Shown: one piece after another, positions 4,509 to 25,580 of the stretch
Layout of the letters: each line of letters opens with the position of its first letter
How positions within the stretch are numbered: position 1 is the first letter of the stretch
From: Christensenella sp. UBA3857
Lineage (GTDB): Bacteria; Bacillota; Clostridia; Christensenellales; CAG-138
Length of the DNA stretch: 25,634 nucleotides
NCBI GenBank assembly: GCA_002392505.1
Contig: DGHD01000029.1
Location: 58,580-84,213 of the forward strand
Direction of reading: 5' to 3'
Program-made: the position numbers and the translations under genes
The notes under the pieces: model-generated
Databases searched by the model: none
Seen by the model: only the letters and a program-made list of their open reading frames with translations
What the model was told of the DNA's origin: nothing

Positions 4509-6599
4509 ATGCAGAGAACATTCGAAATGGAGCTTGCGGGACGCATAGTCACCGTCGTGACCGGCAAATATGCCGAGCAGGCGGGCGGTTCCGTAATGAT
4601 CTCCTGCGGCGGCACGGCGCTTCTGGTCTGCGCCACCGTTGCAAAGCAGCCCCGCGAAGGCGCCGATTTTCTCCCTTTGAGCTGTGACTATGAGGAGAAA
4701 ATGTACGCGGCGGGCAAGATCCCCGGCGGGTTCATCAAGCGCGAGGGACGTCCCTCCGAAAAGGCAGTGCTCACCAGCCGCCTTATCGACCGTCCGCTTC
4801 GTCCGCTCTTCCCCAAGGGCTTTTATAACGACGTTCAGGTAGTCGCTACCTGCATGTCCGTCGAGCAGGACATCCAGCCCGAGATACTGGCTATGATCGG
4901 TTCGTCCATCGCCCTTTCCATCTCGGAAGCCCCCTTCATGGGTCCTGTCGGCGCCGTCTCTGTCGGTCTTGTAGACGGCGAATACGTCATCAACCCCAAT
5001 TCCGAGCAGCGTGAGAAGAGCCGTCTCGCCCTCACCGTCGCCGGCACGCGCGACGCGGTCATGATGGTCGAGGCGGGCGCGAACGAGGTCTCCGAGAAGG
5101 AGATGCTCGACGCGATACTCCTCGCTCACACCCATATCAAGAAGATCGTCGAGTTCATCGATACCATCCAGGCCGAGGTCGGCAAGGAGAAGATCGTTCC
5201 CGAGATCCACGTTCCCGATGAGGAGCTCAAGGCAAAGGTCATAGAGTATGCCCGCGAGAAGGTCGTTTGGCAGCTCGATACCTTCGACCGCAAGGAGCGC
5301 GAGGCAAGGACCGCCGAAGTCACCGCCGACGTCAAGGAGCATTTCGCTGAGGAATACCCCGATTCCGCCGCCGATATCGACGCCATCCTCTATAACCTCA
5401 TGAAGGAGATCTTGCGCGACAAGATCATCAACAAGGGCATCCGTCCCGATGGGCGAGCCATGACCGAAGTCCGCCCCATCTGGTGCGAGACCGGCATACT
5501 GCCCCGCACCCACGGTTCCGCCGTGTTCACCCGCGGTCAGACCCAGGTCATGACGATGACCACCCTCGGCACCCTTGGCGACGGGCAGACGCTCGACGGC
5601 ATCGGCGAGGAGGATTTCAAACGCTACATCCATCATTACAATATGCCCCCCTACTCCGTGGGCGAGGTAAAGCGTCTCGGCTCTCCCGGCAGGCGTGAGA
5701 TCGGGCACGGCGCTCTTGCGGAGCGCGCGCTCCTTCCCATGATCCCCTCCGAGGATGAGTTCCCCTATGCGATCCGACTCGTATCCGAGGTAGTGTCCTC
5801 CAACGGCTCCACCAGCCAGGCCTCCATCTGCGCCTCCACCATGAGCCTTATGGACGCGGGCGTTCCCATAAAGAAGCCCGTCGCCGGCGTTGCAATGGGT
5901 CTTATCAAGGACGATACCACCGGCAACATCGCCATCATGACCGATATCCAGGGTCTTGAGGACTTCATGGGCGATATGGATTTCAAGGTCGCCGGTACGA
6001 AGGACGGCATCACCGCCATCCAGATGGATATCAAGATAAAGGGCATCAACGAGGAGATCCTTACGAGGGCGCTCGAGCAGGCCCGCCAGGGCAGGCTGTT
6101 CATACTCGGCAAGATGCTCGAGTGCATCGCCGAGCCCAGGAAAGAGCTCTCTCCCTACGCTCCCAGGATCCTGCGCTTCACCATCGATCCCGATAAGATC
6201 CGCGAGGTCATCGGTTCCGGCGGAAAGACCATCAACGGCATCATCGCAAGGACCGGCGTCAAGATCGATATCGAGGATGACGGCCGCGTATTCATCGCCT
6301 CCACCGATGCGAAGGCAGCCGCGGAAGCGAAGAGCATCATCGATTCCATCGTCAAGGACATCGAGGTCGGCGACGTCATGCTCGGCAAGGTCGTCAACAT
6401 TCTGCCCATCGGCGCTCAGGTCGAGCTCAAGCCCGGCAAGAAGGGACTCGTCCACATCTCCAAGCTCTCCAACCATCGCGTCGAGAAGGTCGAGGACGTC
6501 GTTTCCATCGGCGACGAGATACTCGTCCGCGTTATAGAGATCAAGCCCGACGGCAAGATCGACCTTACGAGGAAGGGCCTCATCCCCGCAGACAAATAA
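4509..6599 (+). CDS. pnp: Polyribonucleotide nucleotidyltransferase (PNPase)
   Basis: PNPase is a phosphorolytic 3'-5' exoribonuclease of the RNA degradosome-like machinery. The 696-residue protein has the complete domain order: first RNase PH domain (roughly 1-140), alpha-helical linker (roughly 145-230), second RNase PH domain starting around the [14 protein letters not shown] motif near 315 and containing [13 protein letters not shown], a KH domain with the [10 protein letters not shown] loop near residue 565, and a C-terminal S1 domain (roughly 620-690). Normal length. AAGGAG at 4493-4498 lies 10 bases before the ATG. No convincing sigma-A promoter was found in 4435-4508 although TTTACA occurs at 4471, so expression may depend on readthrough from rpsO. 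A hairpin terminator follows. Confidence 0.98.
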
Positions 6600-6707: not shown

Positions 6708-8708
6708 ATGAAATTCAAACGTGTATTAAGCATCGCGATCGCCGTTTTGATGGCGCTTGCCGTCATTCCCGCGGCTGCGCTTGCGGGCGGTATCATCGAC
6801 GCGCAGGCGGAGAACGCAAAGCTCGCTCTGCTTGACGCGGTATGGGCGGATCTTGAAGCGGTGGAGAACGAGCTCCTCGCTGCAAAAGCCGCAAAGACGG
6901 ACGTCGTTATGGCGGTCTATAACGCCGCGCTCAACGACGTACGCGTTGACAAGGACAGCTTCGGCGATCTGAGCGCCAACGGTTTCTTCTTCAAGGTGGA
7001 CGGCATGTGCTGCGCATACGATTACAGGGCGCGCAATTCGGAGCACCGTTCCGCTGTGGATGCGAAACTGCTTAAGACCGTTTCCGCCGCTGCCGAAAGG
7101 ATAGCGAGTACAAAGAACAACACCGGAAGCATGAACGTGCTGCTCGTCGGACCTCATTACAGCGAAGATCTTTCGGATCCCGGCTATTATGATGAAAGCT
7201 TCACCGATCAGTACATCAACGAGATCAACTCCATCGGCGCCGCCACCGGCGGTCAGGTAACGATCCTCGGCGGTCATAACGCCACCGGTCCCGCGATCGC
7301 CGCCGCATATCCCAGCGCCGGAGTCGTGATCTACGATTCCCACGGCGGAGCCATGAACGGGACTTCCTATCTCTGCCTTACCACCAAAACGGGCGTCACC
7401 ACCACGGATTTCAACAACGGATGGGCTTATAACGCGGGTTCCGCCGCTTATATCGACGGCCGCTATATCCAGAATCACATCACCGGCACTCTGCCCAACA
7501 CCATCGTTTGGATGGCTATCTGCGAAGGTATGAAGACTGAGGGCCGCGGCACAACCGGTACGGCGCTTCTCGCTGCCGGCGCGGGCTGCGTATACGGCTA
7601 TTCCCAGTCCGTCACGTTCGCGGGCGATTACGAGTATGAGACGACCTTCTGGAACGAGATGAAGGAAGGCGCCACCGTTAAGGATGCAGTCGCCTATATG
7701 AAGCAGGTCCACGGCATCCCCGATCCCTATGGCGACGCTTATCCCATCGTGATGAGCCCCGTCGATCCGTTCCCCTCGAATCCCGACGGAGCGCAGGAGG
7801 TCAACTGCGATCTTAAGATAATGCCCGACATCGAGCTTCAGAGCTGGAGCATGAACGGTTCGGTCGAAGTTTACCGCGGCTTCTCCGAGACGGTAACGTT
7901 TGACCGCATCCCCGAAAACGCCAATAACTATGAGCTCGAATGGTCCGTTGCAGACGCGTCTGTCGCCGAGATATTCGGCACGAAGAAGAGCGTCGTTATC
8001 ACCGGCGTCGCCCTCGGCTCGACCACCGTTTCCGCGAACGTCATAAAGAACGGCCAGCAGGTCGGCACCGTCTCCTGCGAGGTCACGGTTCTCGAACCTC
8101 CGACGCTCAACGAGGCGACAAATATAGAGGGCGGCATGCTGAACTTTACCTCCACGACAACGAATTATCCGTGGAAGGTCGGTATAGTGGGCGGCGAATT
8201 CGTCGCAATGTCCGGCAATGCGCATGTGGGCAATTCCACCTCCACGATGCAGCTCGTCCTCAATATGCAGGCGGGGGAGAAGCTCAAGTTCAGGTGGCTC
8301 TGCTCCAGCGAGGAGGATTACGATTTCTTCTACTTCTACGTCAACAATTCCCAGAAGGCCGTTCTCGACGGTGAGACCAATTGGCAGAATTACGTCTTCA
8401 CGGCGACGACCGCGGGCACTTACACCTTCCAGTGGAGATTCGAAAAGGATCCCTACATGGACGGCGTGACCGACGCGGGCTACGTCGATGACGTGGAGTA
8501 TGTTAGGAATTACGTCCCCGGCATGGGCGACGTCGATCTTAACGGCTCGGTCGACGGCGCAGACGCGCTCCTTGCGCTGCGCTACGCTATGGGCATCATG
8601 ACCGATCTTACTGCGGAGCAGCTCGCTCAGGGCGACGTCAACGGCGACGGCGCTGTTGACGGCACGGACGCGCTCATGATACTCCGTATGTCCATGGGCA
8701 TCAACTGA
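6708..8708 (+). CDS. Secreted caspase-fold (CHAT/C25-like) protein with Ig-like, jelly-roll and dockerin domains, paralogue 1
   Basis: This 666-residue exported protein starts with a signal peptide (KFKR, hydrophobic core, probable cleavage after AALA at residue 26). An N-terminal region (about 30-140) has no recognised family. Residues about 140-340 look like a clan CD caspase fold: hydrophobic strand then His-Gly in GVVIYDSHGG (His212), and hydrophobic strand then Cys in IVWMAICEG (Cys272). Next come GTTGTALLAAGAGCVYGYSQ and FWNEMKEGATVKDAVAYM, the layout of CHAT and gingipain-type domains. A BIG2-like Ig domain spans about 385-462. A domain of about 465-602 resembles jelly-roll modules (AGTYTFQWRFEKD, GYVDDVEYV). 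The last 60 residues are a type I dockerin with two calcium loops, Asp608-Asp619 and Asp643-Asp654. It is probably a cysteine peptidase attached to a cohesin-bearing surface scaffold. No cohesin lies in the window. AAGGGAG (6692-6698) is 9 bases before the ATG. Confidence 0.8.
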   Translation: MKFKRVLSIAIAVLMALAVIPAAALAGGIIDAQAENAKLALLDAVWADLEAVENELLAAKAAKTDVVMAVYNAALNDVRVDKDSFGDLSANGFFFKVDGMCCAYDYRARNSEHRSAVDAKLLKTVSAAAERIASTKNNTGSMNVLLVGPHYSEDLSDPGYYDESFTDQYINEINSIGAATGGQVTILGGHNATGPAIAAAYPSAGVVIYDSHGGAMNGTSYLCLTTKTGVTTTDFNNGWAYNAGSAAYIDGRYIQNHITGTLPNTIVWMAICEGMKTEGRGTTGTALLAAGAGCVYGYSQSVTFAGDYEYETTFWNEMKEGATVKDAVAYMKQVHGIPDPYGDAYPIVMSPVDPFPSNPDGAQEVNCDLKIMPDIELQSWSMNGSVEVYRGFSETVTFDRIPENANNYELEWSVADASVAEIFGTKKSVVITGVALGSTTVSANVIKNGQQVGTVSCEVTVLEPPTLNEATNIEGGMLNFTSTTTNYPWKVGIVGGEFVAMSGNAHVGNSTSTMQLVLNMQAGEKLKFRWLCSSEEDYDFFYFYVNNSQKAVLDGETNWQNYVFTATTAGTYTFQWRFEKDPYMDGVTDAGYVDDVEYVRNYVPGMGDVDLNGSVDGADALLALRYAMGIMTDLTAEQLAQGDVNGDGAVDGTDALMILRMSMGIN

Positions 8709-8730
8709 TCGTAAATTGTTTTAATACCCG

Positions 8731-8770
8731 GGACGGACGCGGCATGCCGCGTCCGTCCATTCTTTTTTTT
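8731..8770 (+). terminator. Rho-independent terminator after paralogue 1
   Basis: A perfect 12-bp stem GGACGGACGCGG / CCGCGTCCGTCC encloses CATG and is followed within four bases by eight T residues. It isolates this gene from the next paralogue. Confidence 0.92.
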
Positions 8771-8790
8771 GATTTTTTTATATAAAACTG

Positions 8791-8819
8791 ATGACAAACC
8801 GCTCGGAATGTGATATAAT
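8791..8819 (+). promoter_or_regulatory. Promoter of the second dockerin/caspase-fold gene
   Basis: ATGACA (8791-8796) and a perfect TATAAT (8814-8819) are 17 bases apart, with an extended -10 TG. The spacer shares GGAATGTG with the promoter at 6649-6677 in the same position. Confidence 0.8.
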
Positions 8820-8849
8820 ATCCCAAATCCAAGAAAGGAATAAATGATT

Positions 8850-10841
8850 ATGAGTATCAAAAGGTTCTTCTGCATCGTACTGTCCGCAATGATGGTACTT
8901 GCGATCATCCCCGCTGCTGCTCTTGCCAACGGTATCGATTACCAGATGACCGAGGCTGAGGGTATGAGGCGCTGGGATAACGTCTGGGCCGTTCTCGATC
9001 CCGTCGAGGCGGATATGATGGCTCAGGGCGCCACCCGTGCGGAGGTCACCTACGCCGTTTATCAGGCGGCGCTGAACTGCCCCCTCATCGATAAGGGCAG
9101 CATCACCGACCTCAGCGACAATGAGTTCACCTTCACCACCAACGGCATGCTCGGCGGCTACAACTACCGCGTAAGGAACTTCACCAAGGCTCCCGCGAGG
9201 CAGACCAATGCCGACATGAAGATCGAAAAGATCACCGAGACCAAGGGCTGCGGTTGGGCGCAGGCCGTCGACGTTCTTCTTGTCCAGCCCTACAGCGGAT
9301 TCGATTCCAGCTTCACTCAGCAGTATAATACCGAGGCCGCTTCCATTGCCGCCACCACCGGCGGATCTGTGACCGAGCTCAAGGGCAACAACGCCACCGG
9401 TCCCGCTATCGCGGCTGCTTACGCCGGCAAGGGCGTCGTCATCTATGACTCCCACGGCAACTGCATCGATTCCAAGCAGACCTCCTATCTCGATCTGCAC
9501 ACCAACACCGGTCTTACCACCACCGACTTCAACAACGGTTGGGCTTATAACGGCGGTTCCTTCTACGGTATCGACGGTCGTTACATCCAGAACCATGCAG
9601 TGACCCCGCTCGCATGCCCCATCGTTTGGATGGCTATCTGCGAAGGCATGAAGACCGGCGGCCGCGGCACCACCGGTACGGCGCTTCTCGCTGCCGGCGC
9701 GGGCTGCGTTTACGGCTATTCCCAGTCCGTCACCTTCGCGGGCGACTATGCAATGGAAGGCACCTTCTGGACCGATATTAAGAACGGCTCCAACGTTGCC
9801 GATGCATTCGCTCATATGGTATCCGCACACTGCCCGAACGGCTATGATCCCTACGGCGATGCTTACCCCATCGTTATGAGTGCGGACGATCCCTTCCCCT
9901 CCAACCCTGATTCCCGTCAGCATCCCGTTTGCGACTGGACGCTCTTCCCCCAGGAGCCCGTTGCGCTTGAGGGTCATGCCCTTGCAGAGTCCTCTGTTCA
10001 GGTCTACCGCACCGCTACCATTGACGTTTCGTTCAATCCCGATCCCCTGAATGCCAACCAGTATGAGCTTACCTGGGGCACCGAGGATGCTTCCATTGCC
10101 ACCGTTTCCGGCAACAACCGCAAGGTCGCCATTACCGGCGTTGCAGATGGCAATACCCGCATCTACTGCGACGTTATCGTTGACGGCGAGATCATCGGCA
10201 GGGATTACTGCGACGTTGAAGTTCTGCATTATCCCACCCTTGCCGAGGCGGCAAACGTTGAGGGCGGCACGCTTAACGTCGTTTCCGCAACCAGCAACTA
10301 CCCCTGGGCGGTCACGTTCGATGGCGACAGGGTTGCGGTAAAGAGCGGCAACGCCGGCGTCAGCAGCAGTACTTCCACTCTCCGCGTCCAGATCCAGATG
10401 CAGGCGGGCGATAAGCTCAAGTTCGACTGGAAGGTCAGCTCCGAGTCGAACTACGATAAGCTCGGCTTATATGTAAACAACACCCTGAACGGCACCCTCA
10501 TCAGCGGCACCGTCGATTGGGCTGCCAAGGAGTACACCGCCTCCAGCGCGGGCACCTACACCTTCGAGTGGAGGTTCACAAAGGACAACAGCGTCAACAC
10601 CGGCGCTGACTGCGGTTACGTCGATAATATCGAGCTTGTCCGCAGCATCGCCCCCGGCACCGGCGACGTCGATCTTAACGGCTCCGTCGAAGGCACCGAC
10701 GCGCTCCTTGCGCTGCGTTATTCCATGGGTATGGTAGAGCTCAATGAAGAGCAGCTCGCCGAAGGCGATGTCAATGGCGACGGCGTTGTAGACGGCACCG
10801 ATGCTCTCATCATCCTCCGCCTGTCAATGGGCATCAACTAA
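8850..10841 (+). CDS. Secreted caspase-fold (CHAT/C25-like) protein with Ig-like, jelly-roll and dockerin domains, paralogue 2
   Basis: This 663-residue paralogue of the 6708-8708 protein is colinear over its whole length. Its signal peptide ends in IIPAAALA. The clan CD pair is His202 (VVIYDSHGN) and Cys264 (IVWMAICEG), 62 residues apart against 60 in the neighbour. The segment from the catalytic Cys through GTTGTALLAAGAGCVYGYSQ and SVTFAGDY is almost unchanged. The Ig-like domain (about 383-460), the jelly-roll-like domain with AGTYTFEWRFTKD, and the two-loop dockerin at the C-terminus are all kept. The start at 8850 is preferred over ATG 8844 because it aligns with the paralogue's N-terminus, while AAGAAAGGA at 8831-8839 could serve either. 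Codons are strongly biased to C-ending forms (ACC, AAC, GGC), more than in the neighbour, suggesting high expression. Substrate and partner are unknown. Confidence 0.8.
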   Translation: MSIKRFFCIVLSAMMVLAIIPAAALANGIDYQMTEAEGMRRWDNVWAVLDPVEADMMAQGATRAEVTYAVYQAALNCPLIDKGSITDLSDNEFTFTTNGMLGGYNYRVRNFTKAPARQTNADMKIEKITETKGCGWAQAVDVLLVQPYSGFDSSFTQQYNTEAASIAATTGGSVTELKGNNATGPAIAAAYAGKGVVIYDSHGNCIDSKQTSYLDLHTNTGLTTTDFNNGWAYNGGSFYGIDGRYIQNHAVTPLACPIVWMAICEGMKTGGRGTTGTALLAAGAGCVYGYSQSVTFAGDYAMEGTFWTDIKNGSNVADAFAHMVSAHCPNGYDPYGDAYPIVMSADDPFPSNPDSRQHPVCDWTLFPQEPVALEGHALAESSVQVYRTATIDVSFNPDPLNANQYELTWGTEDASIATVSGNNRKVAITGVADGNTRIYCDVIVDGEIIGRDYCDVEVLHYPTLAEAANVEGGTLNVVSATSNYPWAVTFDGDRVAVKSGNAGVSSSTSTLRVQIQMQAGDKLKFDWKVSSESNYDKLGLYVNNTLNGTLISGTVDWAAKEYTASSAGTYTFEWRFTKDNSVNTGADCGYVDNIELVRSIAPGTGDVDLNGSVEGTDALLALRYSMGMVELNEEQLAEGDVNGDGVVDGTDALIILRLSMGIN

Positions 10842-10949: not shown

Positions 10950-11026
10950 GGGGATGTAGCTCAGTTGGTCAGAGCGCTGTGTTCACATCGCAGAGGTCTT
11001 GGGTTCGAGCCCCAACATCCCTACCA
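10950..11026 (+). tRNA. tRNA-Val, anticodon CAC
   Basis: All four arms can be drawn. The acceptor stem is GGGGATG / CATCCCT (first pair G-U). The D-stem is GCTC/GAGC. The anticodon stem is CTGTG/CGCAG with loop TTCACAT, so the anticodon is CAC, reading GTG. The variable loop is AGGTC and the T-arm is TTGGG-TTCGAGC-CCCAA. Discriminator A and CCA are encoded. Total 77 nucleotides, a single-gene transcript with its own promoter and terminator. Confidence 0.97.
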
Positions 11027-11610: not shown

Positions 11611-12180
11611 ATGGAGCGAGTATTGAAGGAAGGATCCAAAACCCTGAACGAGATCGCCGAGAGGGAGTACGGCGCGCTGTATAAATACTGCCTCAAAAGG
11701 AGCGGTGGGGATGAGCAGTTGGCAGGTGAATGCACTGCCGAAGCTTTCCTGCGCGCTGAAAAGCTCGGAGATCCGCCGGAGCATCCGAATATTGCTGGAT
11801 GGCTCAGGCGCACGGCAGGTAACGTGATCCATGAAAAGCTGCGGGAACGAAAGGAATACGCAAAAAGGAACGTATCGTTAGAAGACCTTGCGGAGCGCGG
11901 CGAGGCGCCGTTCTTCGGCAGGGAAAGGGTCTTCATTGCCGAGCTGTTCGAGTCTGAAAACGACTTGGACGATGAGGATATAGTCCGCATCAAGGAAGAG
12001 ATATTGGGCGAGCTTCCGCCGGGCGACCGGGAACTCATAGAGCTCTTCTTTGAGCAAAAGCTTTCTCTCGGTGAGATCGCGGAACGCCTCGGGCGGTCGA
12101 AGGACGCCGTTAGAGTAAAGCTTTCGAGGCTTACCGACAAGGTCACGGAAATGGTAAGACGTTATTTCGAGAAGGAATGA
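11611..12180 (+). CDS. ECF-type RNA polymerase sigma factor
   Basis: This 189-residue protein would redirect RNA polymerase in response to an envelope signal. Region 2 covers about 16-85, with the EQLAGECTAEAFLRAEKL segment (region 2.2-like) and GWLRRTAGNVIHEKLRERK (region 2.4-like). Region 4 covers about 131-185, with LPPGDRELIELFFEQKLSLGEIAERLGRS followed by KDAVRVKLSRL as the helix-turn-helix. The linker (86-130) is acidic. No good Shine-Dalgarno lies at the usual distance. An A-rich AAAAAGG (11589-11595) is 15 bases upstream, separated by a small hairpin that would bring it closer when folded. It is the first gene of a six-gene run with gaps of 14 bases or less. The following gene is a plausible membrane anti-sigma factor. 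Confidence 0.88.
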   Translation: MERVLKEGSKTLNEIAEREYGALYKYCLKRSGGDEQLAGECTAEAFLRAEKLGDPPEHPNIAGWLRRTAGNVIHEKLRERKEYAKRNVSLEDLAERGEAPFFGRERVFIAELFESENDLDDEDIVRIKEEILGELPPGDRELIELFFEQKLSLGEIAERLGRSKDAVRVKLSRLTDKVTEMVRRYFEKE

Positions 12181-12194
12181 AAGGAGGAGACCGT

Positions 12195-12974
12195 ATGCGA
12201 ATTCCTGATGCCGCATCCCGAAGCGAATACAAGCAATATGTCCGAAGCTTGAAAAGCATTATTGCGGGAGAGAATAAAAAGCCGGAACCTTGCCGCGATG
12301 AAGAGCTGATAAAGGAATGCGGAGAAACAATAAGCTATTGCGAGCAAAGACTTTTTGAAACAAGCTCCCGCGCAAAAGGATCGCGCATGGGTAAGCCGGT
12401 CAAGATCGCGCTTATCGCCGCGATCGTCGCCGTGCTGCTGACCGCGAGCATCGTTTCGCTTGCCTCAGGCCGACCGCTTCTGTTTGATTCCCTGTATTGG
12501 GATGTTGAGCGTTTGACGGCGAATGATGACGGATCCCCCCGGTTTACCGAGACCATCCCACGCAAATCGGGCGAAAGGCATGAGTTCAAATCGGAGGAGG
12601 AGCTCAAAGCCTTTTTCGGGGACGATCTGCTCCTTCCCGGCTTCCTTAACGGTGTTTATTTCGTCTCCGCCACGTCCGAGGGCGACAAGGACAGCGCATA
12701 TATAAAATGCGAATACCGCGTGAACAAAAAGCCCATGCTGCTTGCGATAGACCGCATCTCGAACGTGCCGGAGGGCGTAGTCGTCACCGAAAACCGCGTC
12801 CTTACAGATGACGAATACGCCATGGCGTACCGCTTCGGGATCATAGTCGGCGAAGGCTCCGAATGCAGCTACGCGAGATTCGACAGCGGGTTCACGAGCT
12901 ATCTGTTCGTCGGTGAACAGGGCGCCGATATAATCGAAGATATAGCAATCAAAACGAAATGGAGCGAAAAATGA
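12195..12974 (+). CDS. Single-pass membrane protein, putative anti-sigma factor
   Basis: The 259-residue protein has a charged N-terminal part of about 68 residues predicted to be cytoplasmic. One transmembrane helix follows at about 69-91 (VKIALIAAIVAVLLTASIVSLA), then an extracytoplasmic domain of about 165 residues. This layout and the position 14 bases after an ECF sigma gene fit an anti-sigma factor that senses outside the membrane. Cysteines 33, 42 and 49 are present, but not in the HxxxCxxC pattern of zinc-type anti-sigma factors. The extracytoplasmic domain (EELKAFFGDDLLLPGFL onward) recalls DUF4367-like domains, though this is not certain. The start at 12195 is chosen because AAGGAGG (12181-12187) lies 7 bases before it. 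An in-frame ATG at 12177 overlaps the sigma stop and has no ribosome binding site. Confidence 0.68.
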   Translation: MRIPDAASRSEYKQYVRSLKSIIAGENKKPEPCRDEELIKECGETISYCEQRLFETSSRAKGSRMGKPVKIALIAAIVAVLLTASIVSLASGRPLLFDSLYWDVERLTANDDGSPRFTETIPRKSGERHEFKSEEELKAFFGDDLLLPGFLNGVYFVSATSEGDKDSAYIKCEYRVNKKPMLLAIDRISNVPEGVVVTENRVLTDDEYAMAYRFGIIVGEGSECSYARFDSGFTSYLFVGEQGADIIEDIAIKTKWSEK

Positions 12975-22258: not shown

Positions 22259-23191
22259 ATGAAAAAAGCATTCTGCATAATCATTGCCGTTCTGCTTCTT
22301 GCCGGCTTTGCAGCCTGCAAAAAGCAAGACGAAGTTATAGATATCCCTTATCCTGCGGATGAGACCCCCGCCGCGCAGACGGATGAACCCGTTTCCACAG
22401 ATCCTGCCGTGACGGACGAACCTACGCAGGAGCCTACTCAGCAGCCGGAAGTCACTCCCGGTCCCACGCCCCTTCCGCCGCTTCCCGCAGGTCAGGTGCT
22501 CTGGCTCAACACCATGCCGCTCGACCTTTACGGCGTTTCCGAAGCGGACGCCGAGGCATGGTTCAAGGACGCCGTATTCGTCGGCGATTCCATAATGCTC
22601 GGCTGGAAGAACTACAACAACAAGCATCTTGAATCGAACGCATCCTTCTTCGGACCCACGCACTTCCTTTGCGAAGGCAGCTACGGCGCAGGTCACGCGC
22701 TCGAGCCCGTTTCCGCCAACAGCCTGCATCCCCTCTATCAGGGTCAGCAGAGGCTCCTGTGGGAGTCGATTCAGCTGATGGGCGCGAAAAAGGTGTTCAT
22801 CTGCTTCGGTCTGAACGACGTCGCCATCTACGGCGTCGAGGGCACGGCGAACAACTTCAAAACGCTTTGCGACAATATCAAGAATACCGTTCCCGATGCG
22901 AAGATCTACATCGTAAGCTCCATGTATCTGATGGACGATTCGCATCAGAAGAAGCTCACCAATGAGAATTTGAGGAGCCTTAACGGTCTTTTAAGGGAAA
23001 TGTGCGATGAGAGGGGCTACGGCTTCGTCGATATAGCGAGCCATCTTGTCGGTCCCGACGGGTACCTGAAGCGCGAATACTGCTCCGATCCCGATTCGAA
23101 CGCTCCCTGCCATCACACCTATGCCGCGTACGACATCTGGGCGCAGATACTCCGCTCCGTCGCCGCGCGCGATATCACCTACGGAAACTGA
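22259..23191 (+). CDS. SGNH/GDSL-type hydrolase lipoprotein
   Basis: The 310-residue protein has a lipoprotein signal with the lipidated Cys at position 20 (LLAGFAAC). A Thr/Pro/Glu-rich spacer (about 36-75) follows, then an SGNH esterase domain (about 100-305). The block I nucleophile is Ser111 in VFVGDSIML. An oxyanion Asn186 is in ICFGLNDV, and the C-terminal His pair is in PCHHTYAAYDIW (His285/286). Block II Gly is likely in EGSYGAGHA. Such proteins add or remove acetyl groups on extracellular polymers. It is placed outside the membrane and two genes upstream of an MBOAT acyltransferase, so the two probably share a substrate. AAAGGAG (22237-22243) is 15 bases before the ATG, a long spacing, but no other in-frame start fits. 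Confidence 0.85.
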   Translation: MKKAFCIIIAVLLLAGFAACKKQDEVIDIPYPADETPAAQTDEPVSTDPAVTDEPTQEPTQQPEVTPGPTPLPPLPAGQVLWLNTMPLDLYGVSEADAEAWFKDAVFVGDSIMLGWKNYNNKHLESNASFFGPTHFLCEGSYGAGHALEPVSANSLHPLYQGQQRLLWESIQLMGAKKVFICFGLNDVAIYGVEGTANNFKTLCDNIKNTVPDAKIYIVSSMYLMDDSHQKKLTNENLRSLNGLLREMCDERGYGFVDIASHLVGPDGYLKREYCSDPDSNAPCHHTYAAYDIWAQILRSVAARDITYGN

Positions 23192-23217: not shown

Positions 23218-23703
23218 ATGAAGAAAATCGTATCTGTAATCACTCTTCTCGTTATCGCCTCCGCGCTCGTTATGAGCGCCGCCTGCGGTCCCAAGGACGT
23301 TCCCTCTGCCGAGATCCCCAGCGCGGGTCAGCTCTATAAGCTGGTCGCCGAGGCGGGCAAGCTCGAAGCCATGACCTCCGTCCCCGCGGGCGATTATCTT
23401 GACATCTACGGCATCGACGCCTCCAAGCTCGAGGAGAGCGCCTGGTATATGTCCGAAAATCCTTCCCTCAACGCGGACGAGGTAGCCATCTTCAAGCTTA
23501 GCGACGCTTCCTATAAGGATGCGCTCGTGCAGCTCCTCAACGACAGGATCGCCCGTCAGCTCCAGGTCGCCCAGACCTACAGCCCCGAAGAGGCGTCGAA
23601 GCTCGAAAAGGCGGAGGTCGTTTCCGCCGGCAATTACGTCTACTACTGCATCGGCGCCGAGAGCGACGCCATGATGAACGTTCTTAAGACCAACATCAAG
23701 TAA
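23218..23703 (+). CDS. DUF4358 lipoprotein
   Basis: The 161-residue protein has a lipoprotein signal (hydrophobic core VITLLVIASALVM, lipobox SAAC, Cys23). Its mature part follows the DUF4358 pattern: DYLDIYGIDASKLEESAWYMSENPSLNADEVAIFKL, then an amphipathic helix (DALVQLLNDRIARQLQVAQTYSPEEASKLEKA) and the strand GNYVYYCIG. DUF4358 proteins often sit next to MBOAT acyltransferases in Clostridia, as here. Function is not established. A helper of extracytoplasmic acyl transfer is the natural guess. AAAGGA (23205-23210) is 7 bases before the ATG. The TAA stop shares its last base with the next start (TAATG). Confidence 0.85.
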   Translation: MKKIVSVITLLVIASALVMSAACGPKDVPSAEIPSAGQLYKLVAEAGKLEAMTSVPAGDYLDIYGIDASKLEESAWYMSENPSLNADEVAIFKLSDASYKDALVQLLNDRIARQLQVAQTYSPEEASKLEKAEVVSAGNYVYYCIGAESDAMMNVLKTNIK

Positions 23704-25580
23704 TGATCTTTTCAAGCCTGCTGTTTTTAACAATATTCCTTGTTGCGGTACTGTTCTGCTATTACCTTATCCCGAACAGGCTCTACCGCAACATAGTTTT
23801 GTGCGTCTTCAGCCTCTTCTTCTATGCCTGGGGCGAGCCGGTCTGCGTCATCATAATGATCTTCTCGATCTTTATGAACTACATGGCGGGACTTATAATC
23901 GGCAGGTGCAGAAGCAGAGCGAAGTTGAACTGCGAACCGATACGTACCGATCTTATCCCCGTTTATAAACGGAGGATCGGGGTCAGTATTCTGCTGTCGA
24001 TCATAACGTTTGGCGTCTACAAAATCTATTGGCAATATCTTCTGGTTAAAAACACGCGGTCTGTTCAAAAGGACGAATCAAAATGCACTGGCGAGATGCT
24101 GTGCCTGATTTTTGTTCCTTTCTATTCTTTGTATTGGTGGTTCACCAGAGGAAAGCTCGTTAAAGACAGGCTTGCCGATCACGGCATTTCCGCAAAGGGC
24201 AGCGAGATCGCTTATCTGATCCTCGGTATTATGGGGCTCGATATCGTTTCAATGGCGATCATGCAGAACGATTTCAACGGGCTTTCCACAGAGCCGTTCA
24301 GATCGATCGAGCGAGATCCCAATACAGGAGCCAAGGCGGCGCTCGTCGTCGCGGTCGTACTTAATCTTTTGATGCTCGGCGTGTTCAAATACACTCCGCT
24401 CATATTCGATACGCTTAAGGCGATCATCCCGCCGCTCCGCTCCGTCGCGACGCCCATTGCGAAGCAGGTGTTTTACAAGAGTCTTTCCGGCATAATACCT
24501 CAGCTTGCAAGCGTGAAGATCACTCCGGAGGGTATGCTGCCCATCGGCATATCGTTCTACACGTTCCAGGCGATGAGCTACGTTATCGACGTCTATCGCG
24601 GCGATACCGGCGTGCAGAAGAACCCGATGATATTCGGCACCTACGTCGCGCTGTTCCCGCAGCTTATCGCAGGTCCCATCGTCCGCTATAAGGATATAGA
24701 GGATCAGCTCTGGGGCAGGAGGGAGAGCATTGAGCAGTTCACCTCCGGCGTCAAGATGTTCATGATCGGTCTTGCGAAGAAGATACTCATCGCCAACCAG
24801 GTCGCGCTCCTGTGGAACGGCTTGAGGTCCGATCCCATGACGAACGGCGCCCTCGGCTCATGGGTGGGCATGGTCGCGTACTCGCTTCAGATCTATTTCG
24901 ATTTTGCGGGTTATTCCGATATGGCGATAGGTCTCGGAAGGATGTTCGGGTTCGAGTTCCTCAAAAACTTCGATTATCCCTATATCTCCCAGTCGAACAC
25001 CGAGTTCTGGCGCCGCTGGCATATCTCCCTCGGCACCTGGTTCCGCGAGTACGTTTATATCCCCCTCGGCGGCAACCGCAAGGGGATGAAGCGGCAGATA
25101 TTCAACCTTGCCGTGGTGTGGGCTCTCACCGGTCTGTGGCACGGCGCAAGCTGGAACTTCGTACTGTGGGGCATTTGGCACGGCTTCTTTGTGGTCATTG
25201 AAAAGCTGTTCCTCGGCAAATGGCTCAAGAAATGGCCGCGCGTGCTGCGTCACGTGTATTCGCTGCTCGTGGCGGGTCTCGGCTGGATGCTGTTCGATTT
25301 CACGAATATGAAGGAGCTGTTCCGGTTCCTCGGCTCCATGTTCTCCTTCAAGGTCGGCGTCATATCGCATGACGCGCTGACGCTGACGCTGTCGTACCTG
25401 CCGCTCCTCATTGCGGCGATCGTCGCGTCGACGCCGCTTGCCGCCAACATCCGCAGGAAGTTCAACGGCAAAGCCTGGGCGGAATACGTCGATATCGTGC
25501 TGATACTCGTTGCGCTCGTGTTCTGCCTCGCATCCCTCGTCGCGAGCGGATATAACCCCTTCATCTATTTCAGGTTCTGA
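23703..25580 (+). CDS. MBOAT O-acyltransferase (AlgI/DltB-like) with an inserted DUF4234-like domain
   Basis: The 625-residue polytopic protein begins with the AlgI-type N-terminus (two to three helices, FSLFFYAWGEP at 36-46, NYMAGLIIGR at 59-68). It resumes family sequence from about residue 208 (LGVFKYTPLI, LPIGISFYTFQAMSYVIDVYRG at 279-300, FPQLIAGPIVRY at 318-329). The catalytic region has His440 (FWRRWHISLGTW) and His480 (LTGLWHGASWNF). Between these parts, residues about 85-195 form a DUF4234-like module: basic start VYKRRIGVS, SIITFGVYKIYW at 99-110, YSLYWWFTRGKLV, AYLILGIMGLDIVS and QNDFNGL. MBOAT proteins of this class transfer acyl groups across the membrane to extracellular polymers. 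The insert uses more A/T-ending codons than its flanks. Translation is coupled to DUF4358 by TAATG. No terminator follows within the window. Confidence 0.88.
   Translation: MIFSSLLFLTIFLVAVLFCYYLIPNRLYRNIVLCVFSLFFYAWGEPVCVIIMIFSIFMNYMAGLIIGRCRSRAKLNCEPIRTDLIPVYKRRIGVSILLSIITFGVYKIYWQYLLVKNTRSVQKDESKCTGEMLCLIFVPFYSLYWWFTRGKLVKDRLADHGISAKGSEIAYLILGIMGLDIVSMAIMQNDFNGLSTEPFRSIERDPNTGAKAALVVAVVLNLLMLGVFKYTPLIFDTLKAIIPPLRSVATPIAKQVFYKSLSGIIPQLASVKITPEGMLPIGISFYTFQAMSYVIDVYRGDTGVQKNPMIFGTYVALFPQLIAGPIVRYKDIEDQLWGRRESIEQFTSGVKMFMIGLAKKILIANQVALLWNGLRSDPMTNGALGSWVGMVAYSLQIYFDFAGYSDMAIGLGRMFGFEFLKNFDYPYISQSNTEFWRRWHISLGTWFREYVYIPLGGNRKGMKRQIFNLAVVWALTGLWHGASWNFVLWGIWHGFFVVIEKLFLGKWLKKWPRVLRHVYSLLVAGLGWMLFDFTNMKELFRFLGSMFSFKVGVISHDALTLTLSYLPLLIAAIVASTPLAANIRRKFNGKAWAEYVDIVLILVALVFCLASLVASGYNPFIYFRF

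Follow-up and report, generated by a model that had tools for sequence, protein, structure and literature searches.

Attachment of proteins through cohesins and dockerins is known mainly from plant-fibre-digesting bacteria, and CHAT domains are mostly known from TPR-type proteins inside cells. For Ruminococcus flavefaciens, 16 peptidase modules, 10 of them transglutaminase-like, are reported among 222 dockerin sequences (PubMed Central PMC2930009), and one protein of this rumen bacterium, RflaF_05439, is described as a putative cysteine peptidase with a papain-like NlpC/P60 fold, a Cys-His-Gln triad and an X-dockerin (PMC3573020). The account in PMC12484212 places a dockerin-borne S8 subtilisin-like protease inside the cellulosome of Clostridium thermocellum. 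The gingipains (family C25) are clan CD proteases built of several domains, Ig and adhesin modules among them, and DUF2436 is a domain reported from gingipains and PrtH (PMC11448926). Here we describe a tandem pair of genes in a 25,634-nucleotide stretch of DNA (the window) from Christensenella sp. UBA3857 (assembly GCA_002392505.1, contig DGHD01000029.1, positions 58,580 to 84,213 of the forward strand; C51:58580-84213 in our numbering). It is considered probable, though by no means certain, that they encode surface-docked CHAT-like cysteine endopeptidases belonging to a non-cellulolytic cohesin-dockerin system.

Both open reading frames (ORFs) are on the forward strand, between pnp (4509-6599, named from sequence) and tRNA-Val (10950-11026), as the tandem paralogues that a first-pass annotation of the window had recognised. 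Copy 1 (6708..8708) encodes 666 amino acids (aa) and copy 2 (8844..10841, with an alternative start, Met3, at 8850) encodes 665; the two are 54% identical (366/681 aligned columns) and share one layout, consisting of a signal-like start, an N-terminal region, a CHAT-like domain, Big_2, an unassigned module and a dockerin. Read by eye, residues 1-26 of copy 1 (6708..6785), ending in ALA, are a probable signal peptide. The CHAT-like domain, delimited by the family alignment, the consensus match and the profile alignment given below, would extend over about residues 138-352 of copy 1 (7119..7763) and 138-346 of copy 2 (9255..9881). The YDSHG and WMAICEG motifs singled out earlier are present, and LLAAGAGCVYGYSQ is the same in both copies. 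From their invariance and their alignment to the CHAT His and Cys, the proposed catalytic residues are His212 of DSHG (7341..7343) and Cys272 of AICEG (7521..7523) in copy 1, and His204 (9453..9455) and Cys266 (9639..9641) in copy 2; the latter are the previously named His202 and Cys264, which had been counted from Met3 and not from the first ATG.

The modules that follow are defined to different degrees. An Ig-like module had been assigned to both proteins; copy 1 passes the PF02368 (Big_2) cut-off of 22.8 bits (residues 385-454, 7860..8069, 23.9 bits), but the corresponding Big_2-like segment of copy 2 (residues 383-440, 9990..10163) falls just under it at 21.5 bits. The type I dockerins are borne out in both copies, each with two visible calcium-loop repeats and a PF00404 score above the cut-off of 22.9 bits (residues 607-659, 8526..8684, 37.5 bits in copy 1; residues 607-657, 10662..10814, 37.7 bits in copy 2). 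The module between them (about residues 462-606), previously called jelly-roll-like, has no Pfam match; Cleaved_Adhesin was tried as its identity and failed against four sequences, with a score of 12.9 when the best of 100 block shuffles gave 16.7. Residues 27-380, approximately, of both copies are without a Pfam or NCBIfam assignment, and the two proteins have no clan CD match in either database. One NCBIfam match, to a permease, was discarded as noise, having 16.3 bits where the cut-off is 690 (E 0.0029).

The catalytic region nevertheless belongs to a large family. With residues 25-365 of copy 2 as the query and 7997 candidates scored, 648 proteins match at E <= 0.001, and a search with an eight-member profile returned 45 proteins, 39 of them new. 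Among the relatives listed, the names are dockerin, Ig-like, InlB-repeat or hypothetical proteins, mostly from "Clostridia bacterium". When the window pair is aligned with the best 120 of the 648, the proposed His and Cys columns are each conserved in 122/122, while the residue following the Cys is Gln in 5 proteins and Glu in the other 117. A more diverse set of 27 members with less than 55% mutual identity, the window pair included, was drawn from 108 domain-covering ORF copies (duplicates included; ORFs cut inside the domain excluded), and here too both residues are kept in 27/27, down to 24% identity. Loss of either residue in homologues had been named in advance as the outcome that would overturn the assignment, and it is not seen in either alignment. 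Eleven columns are invariant in the 27-member alignment, namely DSHG, the Cys and six others. No other Cys column is complete in this set (the runner-up reaches 19/27, against 27/27 for the proposed catalytic Cys), so there is no universally conserved disulphide partner.

This conservation bears on whether the domain is an enzyme at all. A caspase-fold domain lacking catalysis could serve as a binding or structural module on a scaffold, and the residue after the Cys does vary across the family (E, Q, L, S, Y). Decayed enzymes, however, normally lose their catalytic residues first, and the His and Cys of this family are among its few fully invariant positions; a non-catalytic role is thus regarded as improbable. 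Taken together, the results point to an apparently undescribed family of exported CHAT-like peptidases, which are most likely active enzymes attached to a cohesin scaffold unlike a typical cellulosome.

A clan CD arrangement had been read from the two motifs, and that reading is backed by a consensus match and by a profile alignment that superposes both residues. In MEROPS clan CD as defined in PMC12445089 and PMC4357240, the His precedes the Cys in motifs of the His-Gly and Ala-Cys type; this order is found here, with the strands predicted from sequence. Against PF12770 (CHAT), the consensus of the 27 members scores 24.6 bits (E 2e-5), just above the cut-off of 24. Furthermore, an hhalign comparison of the family profile with 120 CHAT proteins, all relatives of one query, is collinear over 175 columns (E 5e-5 as a single comparison), with DSHG on the CHAT His and the Cys of ICEG matched to that of the SACQTG motif in CHAT. 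Profile homology to CHAT, with the catalytic residues in register, is thereby found, and three other sets of family sequences give E 0.001-0.003. The profile score of 43-44 (44.4 after removal of gap-rich columns) is attained by none of 400 shuffles, the best of 200 column shuffles being 26.3 and of 200 block shuffles 29.2; the reversed profile scores 16.9, and ten other window proteins (as single sequences) and four other alignments score 19.2 or less against CHAT. These results support a domain that is specifically CHAT-like within clan CD and that would adopt the caspase/haemoglobinase fold.

A dockerin calls for a cohesin, and a search of the window's own genome (G000; 1.42 Mb, 53.5% complete), which had been proposed as a check, yielded a scaffold candidate. 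There are six cohesin matches, three of which lie in one 571-aa frame (C51:41826-43130) on the window's contig, about 22 kb upstream of the pair, so that a scaffold with several cohesins, as in a cellulosome, is present. The tail of this protein, PPVTG-hydrophobic-RKKED, reads like a surface anchor, and the genome has two sortase matches. One further cohesin belongs to a protein that has a hydrophobic segment at its C terminus. The same genome contains 26 dockerin places, of which 25 frames were scanned (a 64-aa fragment was left out, and the frame L164:7084-9000 was scanned as 639 of about 742 aa). Besides the pair, the dockerin cargo comprises an S8 subtilase, two redoxin-like proteins (one under cut-off), two CotH proteins, a class 3 lipase, a 5'-nucleotidase, RCC1, LRR and Cthe_2159-type proteins, one sortase-like protein, and several without an informative domain. 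The sortase-like domain, at L180:10798-12771, accompanies a borderline dockerin (23.0 bits against 22.9). By eye, the G000 dockerins fall into a DALLALRYSMG class, which includes the window pair, and a DVTALNAYLVN class (5/23 aligned; L165, L172, L174, L178 and L179), and the latter suggests a second cohesin specificity.

A second genome of the same genus (G363, 94% complete) has 54 dockerin places. After four family members, two fragments and four frames of more than 1250 aa had been dropped, 20 were taken by score, leaving 24 lower-scoring places aside; L222, whose ORF was read without its dockerin, was then removed, so that 19 frames were scanned. They include two S8 subtilases, three redoxin-like proteins, a lipase, a CHAP/peptidoglycan-binding protein, an endonuclease I with both cohesin and dockerin, and a DUF2436/Cleaved_Adhesin protein. 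The endonuclease, L219 (G363:C8:678100-682100), combines endonuclease I, LRR, cohesin and dockerin in one protein and might be an adaptor that also cuts nucleic acid.

It could be argued that glycoside hydrolases escaped detection and that this is a cellulosome of the ordinary kind, given that the own genome is little more than half complete and that part of the dockerin proteins was scanned. Cohesins and dockerins are the hallmarks of a cellulosome, and the scan covers 44 of the 80 dockerin places of the two genomes. In R. flavefaciens, peptidases are combined with glycoside hydrolases, according to PMC2930009. Against this, a glycoside hydrolase family is found at E 0.001 in 0/25 own frames and in 0/19 from G363, in scans run without a positive control; nor does the three-cohesin protein show a carbohydrate-binding domain in Pfam. 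A concealed cellulosome is consequently given little credence. A broader reading, in which this lineage of gut Clostridia has a non-cellulosome cohesin-dockerin machine at its surface for the digestion of protein, lipid and nucleotides, with an undescribed family of exported CHAT-like peptidases as a main, amplified cargo and with the anchor swapped between dockerin and SLH among relatives, is put forward tentatively and falls somewhat short of an even chance.

In an order-wide sample, 7 of 151 genomes match the peptidase family at E 1e-10, all of them in the window's own taxonomic family, from which 10 genomes were sampled. Within 94 genomes of that taxonomic family, 46 match the peptidase family at E 1e-8 and 77 have a cohesin match. 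At least two cohesin matches are present in 42/46 genomes with the peptidase family vs 6/48 without it; because related genomes are not independent, the Fisher p of 1e-15 overstates this association. At least one is present in 44/46 vs 33/48. For a set of 79 named loci, taken from the best 80 of 163, the record title names a ruminant stomach compartment in 32; others name horse faeces or water-deer rectum or give no source.

The anchor varies among these relatives. Scored with a model built from 23 dockerins of the own genome, the 88 full-domain ORFs of the 79 loci (again leaving out those cut inside the domain) comprise 53 with a dockerin, 16 cut by contig ends and 19 without. Five of the 19 were scanned, and four carry SLH repeats, a surface anchor, whereas one has an endonuclease I domain. 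The latter, L102:9908-13909, is a fusion of the CHAT-like domain to endonuclease I, with no dockerin found there. One of the four SLH-bearing relatives also carries DUF2436 and Cleaved_Adhesin (L108:9779-14182), and the same two domains occur beside a dockerin in L216:338-4024, both being Clostridia proteins. No cohesins were found near the relatives in loci L027-L122 (flanks of up to 10 kb, ORFs of at least 150 aa, a model of four own cohesins). This model may be insensitive, since P0114, a relative of 1035 aa, bears a precomputed cohesin model. P0114 has precomputed dockerin, cohesin and Big_2 models beside its CHAT-like domain in a single protein.

Several results weigh against the interpretation of the pair as docked CHAT-like enzymes. 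Individual members stay under the clan CD models, their best CHAT matches having E 0.028 (1/27) and 0.049 (1/8), and of four consensus sequences tried, the three from subgroups lack a CHAT match; thus, the proposed searches against clan CD families succeeded for one family consensus but for no single member. The single window sequences score 20-21 against CHAT, within the shuffle range, and the evidence consequently resides in the family profile. No solved structure was significantly matched; the PDB sequence searches hit dockerins and, in the Ig-like part, a single beta-glucanase, the remaining matches being due to chance. There is no Pfam match to C11 (clostripain, PF03415). On the side of the scaffold, two genomes (G107 and G144) carry the peptidase family with no cohesin detected, and two cohesin matches of the own genome, at C3, were unconfirmed by hmmscan at E 0.001.

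These points could favour a domain outside clan CD, an unrelated fold in which a conserved His and Cys merely mimic the pattern, as no single sequence matches any peptidase family above cut-off. Yet one family consensus does exceed the curated CHAT cut-off, and both residues are in register over a collinear alignment whose score no shuffle equals. Such mimicry is therefore held to be quite unlikely. As for other clan CD families, C11 was rejected as the parent, since hhalign found no match to seven C11 proteins (E 0.49). As a control on such negatives, C11, single C25-like and single CHAT sequences likewise fail against the CHAT alignment used, so that a missing match in this set-up means little. 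The earlier label had been CHAT/C25-like; the CHAT part stands through the consensus and the profile. For the C25 part, PF01364 matches neither the catalytic domain in the Pfam scans nor anything in the own genome, and a single-sequence comparison gave nothing; just one sub-cut-off C25 sequence was available for it among 149 same-phylum genomes, too few for a profile or a fair comparison, and a distant kinship may exist. C14 (caspase/metacaspase) gave no match in Pfam scans of members and consensus sequences. A clostripain-family (C11) protein does lie on the window's contig (G000:C51:13184-13930; L169:4588-7131), so the genome holds a second, classical clan CD peptidase.

In the favoured explanation, both genes would encode exported cell-surface cysteine endopeptidases whose CHAT-like domain would have a catalytic dyad made up of the DSHG His and the xICxG Cys. 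The Ig-like and unassigned modules would serve for spacing or binding. Through its C-terminal type I dockerin the enzyme would plug into cohesins at the surface, the likeliest scaffold being the three-cohesin protein upstream. The likeliest job is the cutting of extracellular proteins for the supply of peptides and nitrogen, a role suggested by the dockerin proteins seen in the genome, which include proteases, a lipase, a nucleotidase and redoxin-like proteins, with no recognised glycoside hydrolase. The same fold and dyad could instead belong to a processing protease that matures or trims the cell's own surface or scaffold proteins, or itself. Clan CD enzymes are described as site-specific endopeptidases ruled by the P1 residue (PMC12445089), and PMC12484212 contains the suggestion of posttranslational processing by cellulosomal peptidases. 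In addition, a family gene lies downstream of pnp in 9/79 loci (with about 2.5 kb between them in two), a conserved housekeeping neighbourhood. However, a genome can have as many as 9 family matches (fragments among them), and this, like the varied C-terminal partners, fits many substrates better than a single maturation step; a processing role is judged unlikely, if worth keeping in mind.

Where the two copies came from was examined with a quick tree of 104 domains (SH-aLRT support only). They belong to different clades, and the nearest locus relative of copy 1 and that of copy 2 lie in the same order in a single locus, L044. A recent duplication is accordingly rejected, and the separate clades and the shared order suggest an old pair kept in tandem. 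It had been claimed that conservation between the copies is strongest around the Cys, as expected of an active enzyme. The peak itself is real, with 36/40 residues identical at 275-314, but its value as a sign of activity is partly confounded, because four-fold degenerate sites are also alike there (21/25, vs 93/178 in other blocks, the block having been chosen after looking; among the others, one dockerin block has 14/18). Exact DNA matches of 28, 38 and 23 bases surround the Cys (window 7501-7615 vs 9619-9733). Local gene conversion may thus contribute to the likeness, and the family-wide alignment is the better argument.

Two other parts of the window, as read from the sequence, deserve mention. 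A GDSL/SGNH-like lipoprotein near an MBOAT-like membrane protein (22259-23191 and 23703-25580) resembles a surface-polymer acetylation pair, and at 11611-12974 a sigma-factor-like gene overlaps a membrane-protein gene that may encode its anti-sigma factor.

The interest of the pair lies in a CHAT-type domain that seemingly works as an exported, scaffold-docked enzyme. Its family numbers hundreds of proteins, and in the members scanned neither Pfam nor NCBIfam assigns the catalytic region. If the interpretation is correct, cohesin-dockerin assembly would extend to clan CD proteases, ruminant gut bacteria would possess a protein-scavenging surface complex with a bearing on nitrogen loss, and there would be a system in which to study scaffold complexes that lack carbohydrate enzymes.

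How the pair compares with the known systems can now be stated. With CHAT (PF12770) it shares the strand-His-Gly-like and strand-x-Cys-like motifs, followed by a Gly-Ala segment and a helix-like stretch (strands and helices predicted), but its members are individually under the Pfam cut-off and combine signal-like starts with an anchor of the dockerin or SLH type. Of the 120 CHAT proteins compared, all relatives of one query, 112 also carry models that we take to be TPR repeats. RflaF_05439 is likewise a putative cysteine peptidase on a dockerin; it differs in its fold and triad and in belonging to a bacterium with a large set of glycoside hydrolases. The gingipains resemble the family in being clan CD proteases of several domains, with Ig and adhesin modules, and the relative L108 carries their DUF2436 and Cleaved_Adhesin, but the anchor here is a dockerin or SLH, the catalytic domain lacks a PF01364 match, and the window's own beta module does not match Cleaved_Adhesin. 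The C. thermocellum S8 enzyme is also a protease docked by cohesin and dockerin, and the window genome encodes a dockerin S8 subtilase as well; that enzyme, however, is a serine protease of another fold within a cellulosome. No paper linking a dockerin to a CHAT domain, clostripain or a caspase-like domain was found in the open-licence PMC literature, and the papers that bring up both dockerins and caspases appear unrelated. Docked peptidases and exported clan CD proteases are each known; it is their combination, together with a non-carbohydrate cargo, that looks new.

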